This document shows positions 9,540 to 30,426 of a stretch of DNA of 59,496 bases, piece after piece. The position numbers were made by a program, and so were the translations under genes. Source of the DNA: a virus. Position 1 is the stretch's first letter, and each line of letters opens with the position of its first letter. The stretch spans positions 1 to 59,496 of IMG/VR virus record IMGVR_UViG_3300035670_000232. One strand, given 5' to 3'. The notes beneath the pieces were generated by a model. It was not told where the DNA came from and ran no database searches. It was given only the letters and a program-made list of their open reading frames with translations.

Positions 9540-10294
9540 TTTCCATCTGGGCAAGCGTCCAAATTTTTTGGACCGTTCGCCATCGGCTTCTCCTCCAAGA
9601 ACTTGCGAAGCCGGTCGGTTCTCGTGGCCCTGGCGTGGCCGTCAAGCGACCCCCAGATAATGCCCGATAGCTCGCCCTTGGAGTTGAACACTGGCCCGCC
9701 AGAGTCACCATTCCTGGCCTCGGTGGATAGCACCATGAACTCAGGCTTGCGATGCCCTTTCGGCGTCGTCCAGTAGAGAACCCTGCCCTCAGCTTCCCTG
9801 AACTTGGAGGGGATTGGGCCGAACCCCATGACTGTCAGTGTCTCGCCGAGAAGGGCAGTCTCATCGGCCACTGGCACTGGCTGGGCGTGGGCAGACTCTA
9901 CCTCCAGGGCGGCAAGGTCAAACGGATCGCTGCTTGCCACCACCTTGGCCTTGCTCACCGACCCATCCTGCCAATGAACAGTGACCGGCCCGCCGTCTTC
10001 GATAACATGATGGGCAGTCAGCACCAAGCCGCCTTCAATCAGCACCCCAGACCCATGGTCTTTGTGGTCGCCGTTGTGCTGGGTGATTCGCACTACCGAC
10101 TTGCGAGGGTCTGGCTTGTGGGAAATATGATCCGTTTTTCCTACACCAAAAACTGTCGCATCCCGCCCACTCCCATCGCAAAGCGGGCAGGCGTAGGCAG
10201 CAGAGCCGACACGCACCAGGCCATCCTCGCAGTTGGCGCAGTCGCCAGCTAGGGCAGAGGCTGTGAGCAGAAGGGCAGCGATGAAGGCTTTCAT
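9524..10294 (-). CDS. Secreted trypsin-like serine protease (256 aa)
   Basis: ATG at 10294 starts a clear signal peptide (MKAFIAALLLTASALAGDCA). After a Cys-rich segment with CxxCxGxG-like elements (CANCEDG, CPLCDGSGRD) comes a chymotrypsin-fold domain with His96 (TAHHV), Asp126 (DPFDLAAL) and Ser198 (NGDSGGP). The triad is intact, so activity is likely. It overlaps the papain-like gene by ATGA and lies among small membrane proteins. An exported protease could attack a proteinaceous envelope or act in lysis. The family also includes HtrA-like housekeeping proteases, but no PDZ domain is present. Confidence 0.85.
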   Translation of the reverse strand: MKAFIAALLLTASALAGDCANCEDGLVRVGSAAYACPLCDGSGRDATVFGVGKTDHISHKPDPRKSVVRITQHNGDHKDHGSGVLIEGGLVLTAHHVIEDGGPVTVHWQDGSVSKAKVVASSDPFDLAALEVESAHAQPVPVADETALLGETLTVMGFGPIPSKFREAEGRVLYWTTPKGHRKPEFMVLSTEARNGDSGGPVFNSKGELSGIIWGSLDGHARATRTDRLRKFLEEKPMANGPKNLDACPDGKCRKP

Positions 10295-11181
10295 GATGCG
10301 GGCTTGCTCCAGTCGTCGGGCTTCGTGGTGGTCACAATCGCAAACGATCCACGCCATGCGGACTTCATGGTCCGCTCGGAATCGTAGCGGAGTACGTCAT
10401 ACGAATCCGGGTAACACGCAAGCCTTTCGCCAGCCATGTACTTCGCCCACGGCACCGCATGGCCATCCCTGCCAACGCTCACGACCATGCCGCGCAGCAA
10501 GCAGCACACAGCCTCTTCGTAGCTGGCCGGGAAGATGATCTCTAACGGGCGGAACAGCTTGGCCGTCTCCTCCCAGCCATCGGGCAGGCGAGACTTGGAA
10601 ACCCACGGGCCACTGGCCTGGTTCAGTCCTCCCTTGCCGGTCGTTCCATGAATGGCGTGCTTGAACTGGTAGTCGTATGGCTGCACTGTCTCGGGCAGCA
10701 TCCCTCTGCGGACTGCAATCTCCAGCACGGCACGCACATTGGCACCACCCCACTGCCTCGGATTCGCCTCGCAGTAGACGCTCAAAGGGGACAGCCAAAC
10801 GGACCCGGCCTTGCCAGACTCGGGGTATCGGAACCCCTTCTTCGGACCCTCTGCGTACGACACCGCACGCTCTCGGTTGCGGGCCGCTTCAAAGTTTGCC
10901 CGAAGAGAATGACAGGTGCATTCATGGGTGGGCGTCTGGTTCGTGAACCTGTCTATGTAGTTCAGGCCCCATGTTCCGCACTTGTCGTTGTCTCTCGCGG
11001 CGTCGTCCCAATCCTTGGGGTCGATCATCCACGAGGCAGGCATCGAACGGGCGGCGTCACCGCACACATCTTGCAGGACATCGCGGGTATCCTCGGCAGC
11101 AAGATGTGCCGGGTAGCCGTCATGCTCGGGCAGGCGAACGTCGATGAGCGACGGGTCGATCTTGGAGAAGGAGTCAATCAT
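10291..11181 (-). CDS. Putative papain-like cysteine peptidase (296 aa)
   Basis: NQTPTHECTCHSL at residues 81-93 resembles the papain N-Q-G-x-C-G-S-C-W motif, with C90 the likely nucleophile. GRDGHAVPWAKY supplies a candidate His241. The third catalytic residue is unclear (Asp or Asn near 259-262). No signal peptide is visible. The size fits a C1-type fold with insertions. It is ATGA-coupled to the secreted trypsin-like protease. A virion or lysis peptidase is possible; the assignment rests on motifs only. Confidence 0.5.
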   Translation of the reverse strand: MIDSFSKIDPSLIDVRLPEHDGYPAHLAAEDTRDVLQDVCGDAARSMPASWMIDPKDWDDAARDNDKCGTWGLNYIDRFTNQTPTHECTCHSLRANFEAARNRERAVSYAEGPKKGFRYPESGKAGSVWLSPLSVYCEANPRQWGGANVRAVLEIAVRRGMLPETVQPYDYQFKHAIHGTTGKGGLNQASGPWVSKSRLPDGWEETAKLFRPLEIIFPASYEEAVCCLLRGMVVSVGRDGHAVPWAKYMAGERLACYPDSYDVLRYDSERTMKSAWRGSFAIVTTTKPDDWSKPAS

Positions 11182-14943: not shown

Positions 14944-15049
14944 TCTTCTTTTCTACTGGGAGGAAGGTTGTCGGGAATGCATGAGCCACATCGAACGTAA
15001 CGACTATCTCATCGACTGTCTCAGGCAAGAGCCCGTCTGTGTTTGGCAC
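14813..15049 (-). CDS. Possible small gene overlapping its neighbours (78 aa)
   Basis: GTG start at 15049 inside the helicase gene's end; the frame covers the 77-base gap after the helicase and then overlaps the next gene by 131 bases. The first ~50 residues (PETVDEIVVTFDVAHAFPTT) look protein-like, the last ~25 are Arg/Lys/Asp-rich. It may equally be a non-coding shadow. Confidence 0.25.
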   Translation of the reverse strand: MPNTDGLLPETVDEIVVTFDVAHAFPTTFLPVEKKNGFFKRLWLRIASCFGPRRRDSSSLHCEQGGDRKRRKEDEAGS

Positions 15050-16550
15050 GACGATCCTGCTCCTTTCTAAAGGTGGATCTGATCCACGGTTTCAGGGTTG
15101 TGTTACCAGCCCCCCACTCCAGATACCAAGGAGGGAGCTTGGACATTTCCACGCCGCCGTACTTGCCGCGCAGTGGATTGCGGTATGTTCCTACACTCCG
15201 CTTGCCGTTGGCGTCAAGTTCAAAACTCTCGCTCGTGACGTTGCCCCTCGCCCGGCCCGTCATCATCTCGCGGCGACGTTGTATTTCCTCGGCAATCATT
15301 CGTCGCTCAAGCTCTTGCTGGGCGAGTGCGTCCATCTCGGCCTGCGTGAGAGGCTCACCGGCCTCGGCCATTTGCTTCTTCACTGCCTCTCGGATGCCAG
15401 GCTTAGTGTCGCTGACGAACATATCCACAGCGGTCACGAGCCGGTGATCCAAGGAGGCGTCAGTGCAGTCGATGATCTGGAAGTCTGGCTTCCCGCTGGC
15501 GGCGATGGCTGCGATGCGGGACTCTGGAGTGGACCCGTCGAAGTCCACTGTCCCGGCAAGCGGGCGGGTCGCACGGCCCACACACTGGAGCCAGAAGCTG
15601 CGAGAGCGAGTGGGCCTGGCAAGGATCATGGTGCGAATCTTCGGGTGATCGAACCCAACCGCCACCACAGCACAGTTCACAAGAACAGTAGACTCACCAG
15701 ACTTGAACTTCTGAATGGCTACCTGCCTCTCCTCCTCGGGCTGGGTTCCCCACACCACCTCGGCCTTGACCCCGTAGTTGTTGGCGAGGTAGTGGGCGAC
15801 CCCCTTGGCCGACGCTACCGATGGCGTGAACACCACAGTCGGACCCAGTGCCTCCTGGCTTGTGATGAGGGCAATGCGGTGGAGGTTGGCTTCCTTCTCA
15901 ATGGCAGCTTGGAGTTGCTGCTGGTTGAAGTCACCGCCCTGCACCTTCACCTCAGACAGATCAAGGCTTTCCACCCTGGCGAGCTTGCACTTCGGCGGCA
16001 CCGCCCAGCCGTTAGCGATGGCCCAGTGAATGTCAAGGTTGCACAGCGGCTCGTAGTAGTCCTTCATGGCGCGGCCATCCATGAGGAATGGCGTGGCGGT
16101 GAACCCTGCAACCATGGCCCCGTGGTCGTTGAACCAGCGAAACATCTCCATGCACGGCTCAGTGAACTGCATGTGTGCCTCGTCCACAATCACAAGCCGG
16201 ATGTCCTTGAACTTCTTGTACCGCCCGCGAATGAGGGTCTGCTTGGATGCAACCACAACGGACGGGCTAAACCATTCGTCGTGATGCACGCGGTACTCTG
16301 CCATCTCCACTCCTGGATCAAGGCCGATCACCTCCCGCACCTTGTCTACTGCCTGCCAGGTCAACTCCCGCAGCGGGGTCATAATGAGAGTGCGGCCCCC
16401 GGTCTGCTCAAGCACACGGCGAGCAAGCTCCGTGAAGATGACCGTCTTGCCAGCCCCAGTGAAGATGCCGGATAGTGTGGCCTTCGTGCCTAGCTCCATC
16501 TCCAAGAGGTGCTGGTCGATGTTCGATTCTTGGTAATCGCGTGGCTTCAT
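15021..16550 (-). CDS. Superfamily 2 DEAH-type DNA helicase (509 aa)
   Basis: N-terminal RDYQ (Q-motif-like), Walker A TGAGKT at 31-36, DEAH at 123-126, TATP motif III at 151-154 and QCVGRATRP motif VI at 322-330. This matches the phage UvsW/RAD25-like SF2 group. The C-terminal ~130 residues are a family-specific extension. Likely roles are branch migration, recombination or origin opening. It is the only helicase seen. Upstream are three TGCTAAGT repeats, probably its control region. Confidence 0.9.
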   Translation of the reverse strand: MKPRDYQESNIDQHLLEMELGTKATLSGIFTGAGKTVIFTELARRVLEQTGGRTLIMTPLRELTWQAVDKVREVIGLDPGVEMAEYRVHHDEWFSPSVVVASKQTLIRGRYKKFKDIRLVIVDEAHMQFTEPCMEMFRWFNDHGAMVAGFTATPFLMDGRAMKDYYEPLCNLDIHWAIANGWAVPPKCKLARVESLDLSEVKVQGGDFNQQQLQAAIEKEANLHRIALITSQEALGPTVVFTPSVASAKGVAHYLANNYGVKAEVVWGTQPEEERQVAIQKFKSGESTVLVNCAVVAVGFDHPKIRTMILARPTRSRSFWLQCVGRATRPLAGTVDFDGSTPESRIAAIAASGKPDFQIIDCTDASLDHRLVTAVDMFVSDTKPGIREAVKKQMAEAGEPLTQAEMDALAQQELERRMIAEEIQRRREMMTGRARGNVTSESFELDANGKRSVGTYRNPLRGKYGGVEMSKLPPWYLEWGAGNTTLKPWIRSTFRKEQDRRAKHRRALA

Positions 16551-16566: not shown

Positions 16567-16613
16567 GGGTGCTAAGTCGCTGCTAAGTGCCACCGCAACC
16601 CGGTGCTAAGTGG
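16567..16613. repeat. Three TGCTAAGT direct repeats upstream of the helicase
   Basis: TGCTAAGT occurs three times between 16569 and 16611, the outer two as GGTGCTAAGT. They lie 20-60 bases before the helicase start. They could be an operator, an iteron set, or the direct repeats of an attI-like integrase site, since a GTTAGGC core follows at 16655. Confidence 0.6.
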
Positions 16614-16655
16614 CCGAAAGCGGCTTATCGGCGGGCAACCGGGACTAATAGGTAG

Positions 16656-16952
16656 TTAGGCGAAGGCCGGAAGGTCGGAATCATGAACCCACTCAAACAC
16701 ATGCCACACGAATGGATTGATGACGGCTGTTCCGATAAAACGCCGAGACGCCTCATGGTTTGGACTGATCGGATTGCCGGTCCCGATGATCTCAATGCAA
16801 CGCGTCTTTGTCGCGTTCGCTGTAGGCACCAAAGCCCACAGGCATAGCTCGCCGTTCTGGTTGGCAACGCTCAATATCCTGGCGCCCGACGGCATCTCAA
16901 TGTCCTGCGTGTCGGTGATTGCCAGAGTGTATTTCCATATCCGGTTGTCCAT
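16656..16952 (-). CDS. DUF7352-like protein, cassette-borne (98 aa)
   Basis: IWKYTLAITDTQDIEMPSGA ... LCLWALVPT ... IEIIGTGNPIS ... FIGTAVINPFVWHVFEW matches a small widespread family of unknown function known from phages and bacteria. ATG at 16952 is preceded by a strong AGGAGGT. The stop codon lies inside a GTTAGGC sequence at 16655-16661, and an attC-like site begins 22 bases from the start. It thus occupies one integron-type cassette in reverse orientation. Confidence 0.75.
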   Translation of the reverse strand: MDNRIWKYTLAITDTQDIEMPSGARILSVANQNGELCLWALVPTANATKTRCIEIIGTGNPISPNHEASRRFIGTAVINPFVWHVFEWVHDSDLPAFA

Positions 16953-16973
16953 CGTCTACCTCCTATGTGAAAC

Positions 16974-17062
16974 GCCTAACAAAGCCTTGCAGCAGAATCG
17001 CGTCGGCGTCTTTTCTCATGGTTCGTCCTTTGGCTGCGATCTGCTGAAGGCAGCCGTTAGAA
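16974..17062 (+). other. attC-like integron recombination site 1
   Basis: 89 bases bounded by GCCTAAC (16974-16980) and GTTAGAA (17056-17062). The inner arms GCCTTGCAGC (16984) and GCTGAAGGC (17043) pair with one unpaired G, leaving short unpaired spacers of 3 and 4 bases next to the outer arms. This is the R''-L''-L'-R' plan of integron attC sites with an extrahelical base. Site 2, 488 bases further on, has the same length and ends. No integrase gene is present in the window. Confidence 0.75.
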
Positions 17063-17076
17063 AACAGGAAACCAAG

Positions 17077-17148
17077 CAGCCCCACGGGGAGTCGAACCCC
17101 GACTCTCGGAACGAAAATCCGATTTCCTAACCATTAGAAGATGGGGCC
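17077..17148 (-). tRNA. tRNA-Glu (UUC)
   Basis: Minus strand begins GGCCCCATCTTCTAATGG. The acceptor pairs with TGGGGCT (G-U at the first pair) and the D-arm is UUCU/GGAA-like. The anticodon stem TCGGA/TCCGA holds loop TTTTCGT with anticodon TTC, and the T-arm is CGGGG-TTCGACT-CCCCG. Discriminator G73; CCA is not encoded. It sits inside a cassette delimited by two attC-like sites and may supply GAA/GAG decoding to the phage. Confidence 0.92.
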
Positions 17149-17175
17149 GTGCATTCGCCGCAGACTTTGCGGCAA

Positions 17176-17244
17176 TTAGCCGATGTATTCGCCGCCGTAG
17201 TATTTCAGCCCCGGCTCGCTCTCATACCATTCGTCGAAAGTCAT
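17176..17244 (-). CDS. 22-aa acidic peptide in the tRNA cassette
   Basis: ATG at 17244 overlaps the stop of the upstream ORF (ATGA) and has GGAGGAC just ahead. Encodes MTFDEWYESEPGLKYYGGEY and two more residues. The coupled start argues that it is translated; function unknown. A small CCGCA/TGCGG hairpin follows it, before the tRNA. Confidence 0.45.
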   Translation of the reverse strand: MTFDEWYESEPGLKYYGGEYIG

Positions 17245-17507
17245 TTGTCCTCCAGTTCTCGCAGCCTCGCAATCGCCTCAATCATCCGCAGGTGGCACTC
17301 CTCGGTCGCCGCCATTATCGCGGCATCTCTCTCCGCTCGTATCGCTCGCATGTCGCGATCAAAAACGTGAACGCTCCAGGCAACGCCAAAGCCGACCACA
17401 ACGACCAACACCCCGAAGAGCATCGCCTCGTCGTTCCAGAATTTACAGAGCCGCACAAAAGCCCTAACAAAGCCTTGCAGCCGACTCCTAGCAGCGTCTG
17501 TCATCAT
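17241..17507 (-). CDS. Small membrane protein, cassette-borne (88 aa)
   Basis: ATG at 17507 behind GGAG; both lie within the second attC-like site. One strong membrane span (AMLFGVLVVVVGFGVAWSVHVF) is followed by a charged helix (DRDMRAIRAERDAAI...). Orientation is opposite to the usual cassette gene direction. Function unknown. Confidence 0.55.
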   Translation of the reverse strand: MMTDAARSRLQGFVRAFVRLCKFWNDEAMLFGVLVVVVGFGVAWSVHVFDRDMRAIRAERDAAIMAATEECHLRMIEAIARLRELEDK

Positions 17508-17550
17508 TGATACTCCATTGGCTGCGATCTGCTGAAGGCAGCCGTTAGAA
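17462..17550 (+). other. attC-like integron recombination site 2
   Basis: 89 bases from CCCTAAC to GTTAGAA. It is identical to site 1 for the first 18 bases after the first base and for 34 bases at the right end, while the middle differs. The same fold with arms GCCTTGCAGC and GCTGAAGGC is possible. Conserved ends with a variable centre are typical of attC families. It lies immediately beside the SSB terminator. Confidence 0.75.
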
Positions 17551-17570
17551 AAACCCCCGTCTCTCCGGGG
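17549..17570 (-). terminator. Intrinsic terminator after SSB
   Basis: Minus strand CCCCG-GAGAGA-CGGGG stem-loop followed by GTTTTT. It lies 52 bases after the SSB stop and directly abuts the attC-like site, as if cassettes had inserted just behind it. Confidence 0.75.
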
Positions 17571-17621: not shown

Positions 17622-17975
17622 TCAGTCAAAGTCACCAAAGTCGTCGTCGCGGGACGGTGCCTTCTTGGGCTTGTCACCGCCACCCTTGCCGCACAGCTTC
17701 ACGCATCGCGTGTTGACTACCGTGCGCCGGTGAGTGACACCATCCTTTTCCCACGACTGGTTCTCCAGTTCCCCTTCGATGAGGACGGGAGTTCCCTTGG
17801 AGATGTAGTCCAGGCCGCCCTTCGGCTCCCACCAGACCACATCCATAAACGTCACCTTGTCGTCGTAACCATTGATGGCAATGCTGAACTTCGCCAGCGT
17901 CTTGCCGCCCTTGGTTTCGTGAACCTCGGGATCCTTGGTCACGTTACCCATCGCAATGTACTTCTGATAACCCAT
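17622..17975 (-). CDS. ssb: Single-stranded DNA-binding protein (117 aa)
   Basis: OB-fold layout with YIAMGNVTKDPEV, GKTLAKFSIAIN, DVVWWEPKGGLDYISKGTPV and VLIEGELENQSWEKDG. It ends in the acidic tail SRDDDFGDFD used to recruit partner proteins. Length is close to bacterial SSB cores. ATG at 17975; the GTG just before is also in frame. It is the last gene of the exonuclease-ERF-SSB operon and is followed by a terminator. Confidence 0.92.
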   Translation of the reverse strand: MGYQKYIAMGNVTKDPEVHETKGGKTLAKFSIAINGYDDKVTFMDVVWWEPKGGLDYISKGTPVLIEGELENQSWEKDGVTHRRTVVNTRCVKLCGKGGGDKPKKAPSRDDDFGDFD

Positions 17976-18133
17976 CACTCACCCTCCTTCTTTAGGGAAA
18001 CAAACTCTTTCAACGCTTCATCATACCGTCGCCTGCGGTCAATCTCCTCACGGACCATGACCGTGGCTATCTGAACAAACGAACGCAAGTCCTGGGCAAG
18101 CTCAACGAATGCTCTGTCTGCATTACCCTGCAT
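17975..18133 (-). CDS. Small hypothetical protein (52 aa)
   Basis: ATG at 18133 inside the ERF gene's end; starts MQGNADRAFVELAQDLRSF. A single charged helical protein lying between ERF and SSB, translationally coupled to both. Function unknown. Confidence 0.6.
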   Translation of the reverse strand: MQGNADRAFVELAQDLRSFVQIATVMVREEIDRRRRYDEALKEFVSLKKEGE

Positions 18134-29235: not shown

Positions 29236-30426
29236 TCAGGCCGTTGCTGGCAAATCCGGGACAATGGCCGCCATGTTGTGGACAATCTTCTCGGTCGTGG
29301 TGGTCAAGGCGCATGTGTTCGGGTCAAACGTAGCGCTCGTCACAACATCCGGCGTGAGCTTCAGATTCTTGAGGGCCAGAGAAAGCCTCCTAAGCCCCTG
29401 GTACGCCAGCCCTGCCACCCGCCTGGCCACAGGGTCCATGCCGCCTTGATTTCCGGGGTTGTTGTTAAAAACGCGATTGTCGATGTGCTGGTTGATGACA
29501 GGGCCAAAGTTTGCAGGAAACCAGAAGATTCCACCCGGAGGCCCCTGGGCTCCCGGAATGCCATTCTCGCCATCCTTGCCAGCGGCCCCAGGAGAGCCAT
29601 CAAGCCCTCGGCTTCCCTGGCGACCGGAAGGTCCATTAATGATCGTGTCACCGTTGAACACACGGGCGTCAATGTTGCTCGTGTGCATGTGGTTCGTGTA
29701 GGTGTCGCCAGCAAACAGATTCGTCGTGCTGGTGTTGCCTTCAATGTTGAAGGTATTCCCGGCGTAGTGATTGTTGGCGAAATACTGGTTGAGGTTCTGC
29801 GTCAACTCAGTCCGCATATCGAAGTTCGGCCCGCCGTAGTAGGTGCTGTTCCAGTCGCCGCCACGAAAACCGCCGCCACCAGGCATGTCAATGAACGTGT
29901 CATTGTCGTAGTTCTGAGGGAACAGGTAGTGATTGAACGTCGGGTTCCAGCCTGGTCCGCCGTTGCCATGCGGTGAAGTGAATTCTGGACTCTGCCCATT
30001 TGTCCACGGCGTGTATCCTCCACCCCATGAATCGCCAGGATTGGGATTGGCTGGTATCGGCGGCAGATTGATCGTCGGCCCGCCAGAGATGTAGTCGCCG
30101 TTGTTGTAGATGCTATCGCCAGTGAATGGGCCGATGTTGTTGGTGATGCTTGGCCCAGGACCGTAAGACGGCGGTGGTGTCGAATTGAACGGAAGCCCGC
30201 CAGGCCCGCTGCCGTCTCCGTATCCATCACTCCCCTGATAGCGACCGCCGCCAGGAATAGACTCAGGTGACAGGCCGGACATCCTGCTTGGCGCAACCGT
30301 CATTGGGCCACGATGCTCAAGGGCCTGCCCGCACTGACCAACCGTTGAGAGGAGTGCTGAAATCTGGTTTTGGTTTAGGATGCCCTGGAGTGACCTGCCA
30401 ATCCCTGGGGCGGCGCGTGTAAGCAT
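29236..30426 (-). CDS. Collagen-like tail fibre protein (396 aa)
   Basis: Residues ~262-298 are Gly-X-Y triplets (GPSGRQGSRGLDGSPGAAG...), a short collagen-like stalk. Before this lies an Asn/Gly/Tyr-rich low-complexity region with YNNGDYISGG and NTFNIEGNTSTTN. The C-terminal ~100 residues are a mixed domain. Such proteins are usually trimeric virion fibres. It overlaps the nozzle gene by one base. Confidence 0.65.
   Translation of the reverse strand: MLTRAAPGIGRSLQGILNQNQISALLSTVGQCGQALEHRGPMTVAPSRMSGLSPESIPGGGRYQGSDGYGDGSGPGGLPFNSTPPPSYGPGPSITNNIGPFTGDSIYNNGDYISGGPTINLPPIPANPNPGDSWGGGYTPWTNGQSPEFTSPHGNGGPGWNPTFNHYLFPQNYDNDTFIDMPGGGGFRGGDWNSTYYGGPNFDMRTELTQNLNQYFANNHYAGNTFNIEGNTSTTNLFAGDTYTNHMHTSNIDARVFNGDTIINGPSGRQGSRGLDGSPGAAGKDGENGIPGAQGPPGGIFWFPANFGPVINQHIDNRVFNNNPGNQGGMDPVARRVAGLAYQGLRRLSLALKNLKLTPDVVTSATFDPNTCALTTTTEKIVHNMAAIVPDLPATA

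Follow-up and report, generated by a model that had tools for sequence, protein, structure and literature searches.

Integron cassettes normally depend on the promoter of the integron platform and on their own start signals. In clinical integrons, translational coupling is provided by ORF-11, located in attI1, and by short ORFs of attC sites (Jacquier et al., reviewed in PMC8876359). Cassette arrays have also been described in phages. Qi et al. 2023 (PMC9892861) report CALINs, which are arrays of at least two attC sites without the integrase IntI, in virulent phages. According to this source, one phage array lies directly behind a terminator, the cassettes are rich in DNA methyltransferases and typically share the same direction, and IntI1 recombined 5/6 of the tested phage sites.

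The window analysed here is the whole stretch of 59,496 bases, which constitutes one IMG/VR virus record. It carries terminase, major head protein and tail-fibre genes; no terminal repeats were found in it, and the record may be a fragment. All evidence given below is inferred from the sequences of metagenomic contigs. Model searches of the 59,496-base record returned no match to IntI (TIGR02249) and none to other tyrosine recombinases (PF00589), in agreement with the preliminary description of the locus as a cassette set without an integrase. As it has no IntI gene, the array is not a complete integron; with two attC sites it corresponds to the CALIN, or integrase-less array. The description of such phage carriage as unusual had missed that phage CALINs are already published (PMC9892861), and the bare finding is therefore not new. 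The window also encodes, at 29236-30426, a protein with a collagen-like stretch of the tail-fibre type. A 296-aa protein without PHROG match (10291-11181) has a counterpart of 66% identity in the siphophage contig G009, and of 52% identity in the contigs G007 and G010, though their structural genes are unrelated.

Table 1. Features of the insert and its neighbours in the window, and recombinase genes of related phages. The arrow marks the (putative) crossover point.
Feature	Position	Strand	Evidence or remark
DEAD-type helicase gene, left neighbour of insert	15021..16550	-	Pfam Helicase_C/DEAD/ResIII; PHROG phrog_16
attI-like element	16567..16655	+	repeats and core CCGGGACTAATAGGTAG↓TT; same element in G007, G010, G015, G017
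Cassette 1 (TTAGGC ... GCCTAAC-attC1-G), gene on minus strand	16656..17056	+	left core fully complementary to its R'' box (4/4)
DUF7352 gene, 98 aa	16656..16952	-	PF24043, E 8.9e-27; phrog_3848
Putative leader ORF MRKDADAILLQGFVRRFT, start in attC1 loop	16963..17019	-	SD AGGA 17029-17026; predicted translation
attC1	16974..17062	+	covariance model R1 32.4 bits, E 1.9e-5; R2 103 bits
Cassette 2, tRNA-Glu and 88-aa ORF, both on minus strand	17057..17544	+	core TTAGAA against R'' CCCTAAC, 2/4
tRNA-Glu (anticodon TTC)	17076..17148	-	ARAGORN; Rfam RF00005, 57.2 bits
88-aa ORF (MMTDAARSRLQGFVRAFV...), start inside attC2 loop	17241..17507	-	SD GGAG 17516-17513; no family match
attC2	17462..17550	+	covariance model R1 30.6 bits, E 5.4e-5; R2 84 bits
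SSB intrinsic terminator, right edge of insert	17555..17570	-	17570-17555(-)
SSB gene, right neighbour of insert	17622..17978	-	PF00436, E 8.6e-16
Xer-like recombinase, G017	L070:1635-2543
Xer-like recombinase, G015	L071:12940-13848
Xer-like recombinase, G010	L062:18429-19352
Xer-like recombinase, G009	L060:15290-16192

The shared left and right arms recur in the two 89-nt elements without a mismatch, against values of 0.03 and 0.00 expected by chance in the window. A regular-expression scan for attC sites is too insensitive, and covariance models were used in its place. The model R1 was built from nine canonical attCs of plasmid resistance cassettes and included no phage or planctomycete sites, a restriction made to avoid circularity. 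It matched exactly two sites in the window, while the third match had an E-value of 5.4; its sensitivity is such that only 5 other phage sites were recovered at E below 0.01. Both elements thus combine an imperfect inverted repeat (R''-L''...L'-R') carrying an extrahelical base with recognition by an attC model, and the attC plan and coordinates proposed from the first inspection agree with the arms and the R1 matches. It is the left arm that carries the extra base (GCCTT[G]CAGC / GCTGAAGGC), a placement shared with the cmlA1 attC, which makes the plus strand the canonical top strand. The plain folding energy of the elements is weak (z -0.95 to -2.1) and was discarded as uninformative for recognising attC. 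Judged by their structure and the independent model, attC1 and attC2 are genuine attC sites, with recombination by IntI predicted. By exact-pattern search, further members of this attC family were located in Planctomycetes MAGs, as well as in some ten viral contigs besides the window.

The gap between the SSB and helicase genes measures 78-90 nt in three phages with homologous ERF/SSB/helicase regions, and 1,071 nt in the window; in these three relatives the region contains neither tRNA nor attC. By comparison with these phages, the SSB-helicase segment of the window is an insertion. It spans 16567-17550, from the SSB terminator to the attI-like repeats before the helicase gene, and the earlier placement of the set directly behind the SSB terminator is supported by the position of the latter. 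The left boundary was revealed by the comparison of G015 and G017, whose cassettes differ although they follow one and the same attI-like site. It is conserved in the window too, and consists of CGGTG[AC]TAAGT-type repeats and a core CCGGGRCTAATAGSTAG↓TT. The GTTAGGC core proposed at 16655 is correctly positioned; what had been missed is that it forms the junction of a larger element. In the window the direct repeats occupy 16567-16580, 16578-16591 and 16601-16614, followed by a weaker inverted copy at 16620-16633, and the crossover would take place between 16655 and 16656.

The element is common to five phage contigs (the window, G007, G010, G015 and G017), and at 5/5 junctions the first cassette opens, directly behind the G, with six bases complementary to its own R'' box. 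In the phage contigs, clustered repeats are confined to the left boundary, barring single scattered matches. In all five, an entry site before the first cassette is thus present, with repeats and a core ending in G↓TT. An attI also adjoins its IntI and is bound by it; the window phage has no IntI. Recognisable copies of the element number 0 in 22 planctomycete genomes, and no shared repeat motif was found next to 15 host IntI genes; its attribution to a host attI was rejected on these grounds. As it has neither a host match nor a phage IntI, the element is named attI-like only. Its position and architecture suggest that it acts as attI.

Both cassettes are units bounded by G↓TT cores, with a start complementary to their own R'' box, fully in cassette 1 (4/4) and in part in cassette 2 (2/4). 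The limits proposed earlier hold, with the correction that the match of the R box of cassette 2 is imperfect. The tRNA-Glu claimed in cassette 2 is found by ARAGORN and Rfam in agreement, accompanied by one likely ORF instead of the two small ORFs first described; the gene of cassette 1 belongs, as had been suggested, to the DUF7352 family. DUF7352 is a phage family that occurs outside cassettes too (L231-L233), and no flanking attC was found at its relatives. No tRNA was present in the other phage arrays scanned, and one tRNA-Cys was found in one chromosomal region scanned, where the cassette is only putative. The matches listed between the insert and the DNA of published phages concern almost only tRNA-Glu genes. 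All cassette genes are coded on the minus strand, and the NKALQ-type tails mentioned in the preliminary description are translations of the non-coding strand.

The cassette genes are antiparallel to attC and have start signals inside it, an arrangement overlooked in the first reading. On the strand of the gene, the loop contains a Shine-Dalgarno (SD) motif and an ATG in 21/24 phage sites, most of which were detected with patterns resembling the sites of the window, compared with 2/121 chromosomal planctomycete sites (Fisher p 5e-20, which overstates independence as the phage attCs are partly related). Counted by locus, the values are 11/11 and 2/23, and shuffling of the loops gave a mean of 1.9 and a maximum of 6. 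The best-scoring chromosomal relatives have identical arms and no SD and ATG. The longest ORF is antiparallel to attC in 11/13 phage cassettes and parallel in 75/94 chromosomal ones. The frame from the loop ATG is open to the R box in 22/23 sites; in the single exception, the annotated methyltransferase uses the following ATG. The N6_N4_Mtase (MSKDDDAILLQGFV...), Dam, MT-A70 and DUF4326 genes begin inside attC, and ahead of the domain their frame offers no further Met. Other cassettes carry short leaders that stop at or near the next start codon. An example is the DUF7352 gene of the window, where the stop of the attC1 leader overlaps the AGGAGG ahead of the ATG. Translation from the attC start codons is predicted from these features, and in the window phage and about ten other phage contigs a single attC element appears to be used for cassette swapping as well as for translation. 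As a separate observation, L204:3731-3819 and L209:2165-2253 are the sole chromosomal attCs with a bottom-strand loop SD and ATG, and are possibly phage-derived cassettes.

The family model R2 detects the attC family in 42/72 genomes of one planctomycete family, that of G002. IntI is present in 16/20 examined genomes of those bearing the attC family, and in one MAG a family attC lies about 1 kb from IntI. Within 127 chromosomal sites the stem covaries, with 95.2% paired and a covariation of 0.371 vs 0.104 in shuffles. This type of attC belongs natively to the integrons of planctomycetes. Since the family occurs in planctomycete genomes with IntI, the host of the window phage is likely a planctomycete, and the likely cassette enzyme is the planctomycete host IntI acting in trans, which is the simplest account. 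Two further observations concern the chromosomal regions. In this planctomycete family (G328:C6, G341:C9 and G322:C42, corresponding to L194, L207 and L206) the IntI gene points to the array and lies on the same strand as the attCs, by which class 1 integrons differ. In addition, the chromosomal planctomycete cassette region L206:3113-3663 holds two overlapping small ORFs, toxin-antitoxin-like and parallel to attC.

The insert is probably an integrase-less phage cassette array served by a host IntI in trans, in which the attCs double as translation-initiation modules. It consists of an attI-like element, the putative entry site, followed by two cassettes, each closed by a planctomycete-type attC. 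While the phage DNA is single-stranded, an integrase supplied in trans, most likely that of the host (IntI), would act on the folded bottom strand of attC and thereby add or remove cassettes at G↓TT. The phage adaptation would lie in the gene being antiparallel to attC, so that the loop gives the Shine-Dalgarno motif and ATG and the recombined hairpin strand is the sense strand too. The peptide coded by attC would then either form the N-terminal part of the cassette protein or remain a short leader that stops at or near the next start and allows translational coupling. Such a cassette could be translated wherever it is placed in a phage operon, without an integron promoter or a start signal of its own. 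Points against this explanation include the mismatched core of cassette 2 (2/4), the lack of a recognisable match to the attI-like element beside host IntI genes, the partial relatedness of the phage attCs, the low recovery of other phage sites by R1, and the possibility that single-cassette differences arise by homologous recombination between attC repeats.

An enzyme of phage origin has also to be considered, as a Xer-like tyrosine recombinase (~300 aa) adjoins the arrays in the siphophages G009, G010, G015 and G017, and as a fragment in G006. In G010, G015 and G017 its stop codon is closely followed by a half-attC, the family is common to array-bearing phages (34-94% identity), and the attI-like element is itself phage-specific. 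Such a recombinase could recombine the cassettes at the attI-like site, as part of a phage-encoded integron; the window phage would have lost the enzyme or would use that of a coinfecting phage. This is unlikely: the enzyme does not have the insertion of the aligned host IntIs (seven sequences minus L213 and L217, which did not align), its score is far below the IntI cut-off, and it may be a plain lysogeny integrase. Its identity with IntI was rejected on these model scores and the missing insertion. Furthermore, the window phage has no recombinase, and none was seen in G007, whose contig is a fragment. Apart from this question, the recombinase region beside the array is replaced between the near-identical G006 and G010 (L017:7652-8888 vs L062:17708-19406), and G006 retains only the C-terminal part of a G017-type recombinase.

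The exchange of cassettes can be followed among the related arrays. G007 and G010 are phages, with terminase, portal, head protease/MCP and tape-measure genes; their structural genes differ from those of the window phage, with which they have an exonuclease, a protease and a few other genes in common. Outside the array, the identity between G006 and G010 reaches 98-99.97%, and the two differ by exactly one attC-to-attC unit. G014, an unrelated phage contig, shares with G010 one 376-bp cassette stretch at 90%, with nothing else detected. Such differences, together with the unlike cassettes of G015 and G017 at their common attI-like site, fit site-specific exchange and suggest that the cassettes are mobile, with homologous recombination between attCs as the alternative. 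The attCs could have been acquired once and the cassettes spread among phages by homologous recombination only, the sites being kept for their start signals. The retention of SD and ATG in 21/24 sites, attC repeats up to 100% identical and the location of the G006/G010 difference between directly repeated attCs would all agree with this scenario. However, R'/R'' complementarity varies by cassette and stays perfect in 20/23 phage cassettes (chance 1/256 each), a state that would not persist if conserved arms were exchanged by homologous recombination, and the extra base and stem are kept as well; homologous recombination alone is thus given little probability. That the repeats are a structural RNA or regulatory hairpin resembling attC, as the weak folding z-scores and the SD and ATG in the loop (suggestive of an mRNA role) might indicate, is extremely improbable and was rejected, since the independent attC model matches both sites, the same family occurs in arrays near IntI, the cores show cassette-type complementarity and no Rfam family except tRNA matches.

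With the host IntI acting in trans as the preferred reading, the recombination hairpin as a portable translation-start module would explain cassette expression in phage operons. A cassette pool, with DNA methyltransferases that likely guard against restriction, would move between unrelated planctomycete phages, and this raises the question whether bacterial integrons serve phages as a means of exchanging genes. A more far-reaching and doubtful proposal is a phage-evolved cassette system without IntI, in which a phage attI, attC as translation start and the siphophage Xer-like recombinase would allow unrelated phages to swap counter-defence genes and to express them from whichever operon receives them.

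Several properties of the locus are shared with known systems. Like the CALINs of Qi et al. (PMC9892861), one of which lies behind a terminator, the array is situated in a phage without IntI and behind a terminator, with methyltransferase cassettes in phages with related arrays. The shared attI-like element, the start signals inside attC and the antiparallel gene rule are unreported in the sections of that source considered here. Beyond the prior finding are the attI-like element, the in-attC starts, the one-cassette differences and the planctomycete-native attC family. For start signals inside attC serving their own antiparallel gene, no report was found in a literature search conducted mostly without subscription journals and preprints. 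With the sedentary chromosomal integrons of planctomycetes, whose genomes have IntI, the array has the attC family (R2) in common; these integrons differ in their parallel genes (75/94), in the rarity of the loop SD and ATG (2/121) and in the other sequence beside IntI. The closest likeness in translation is to ORF-11 and the attC short ORFs (PMC8876359), where the translation of a cassette gene is likewise coupled to a short ORF lying within a recombination site. Those ORFs are coded on the top strand of attC and help the following cassette, whereas the phage attC ORFs are located on the bottom strand and would serve the gene of their own cassette, in many cases by forming its N-terminus.
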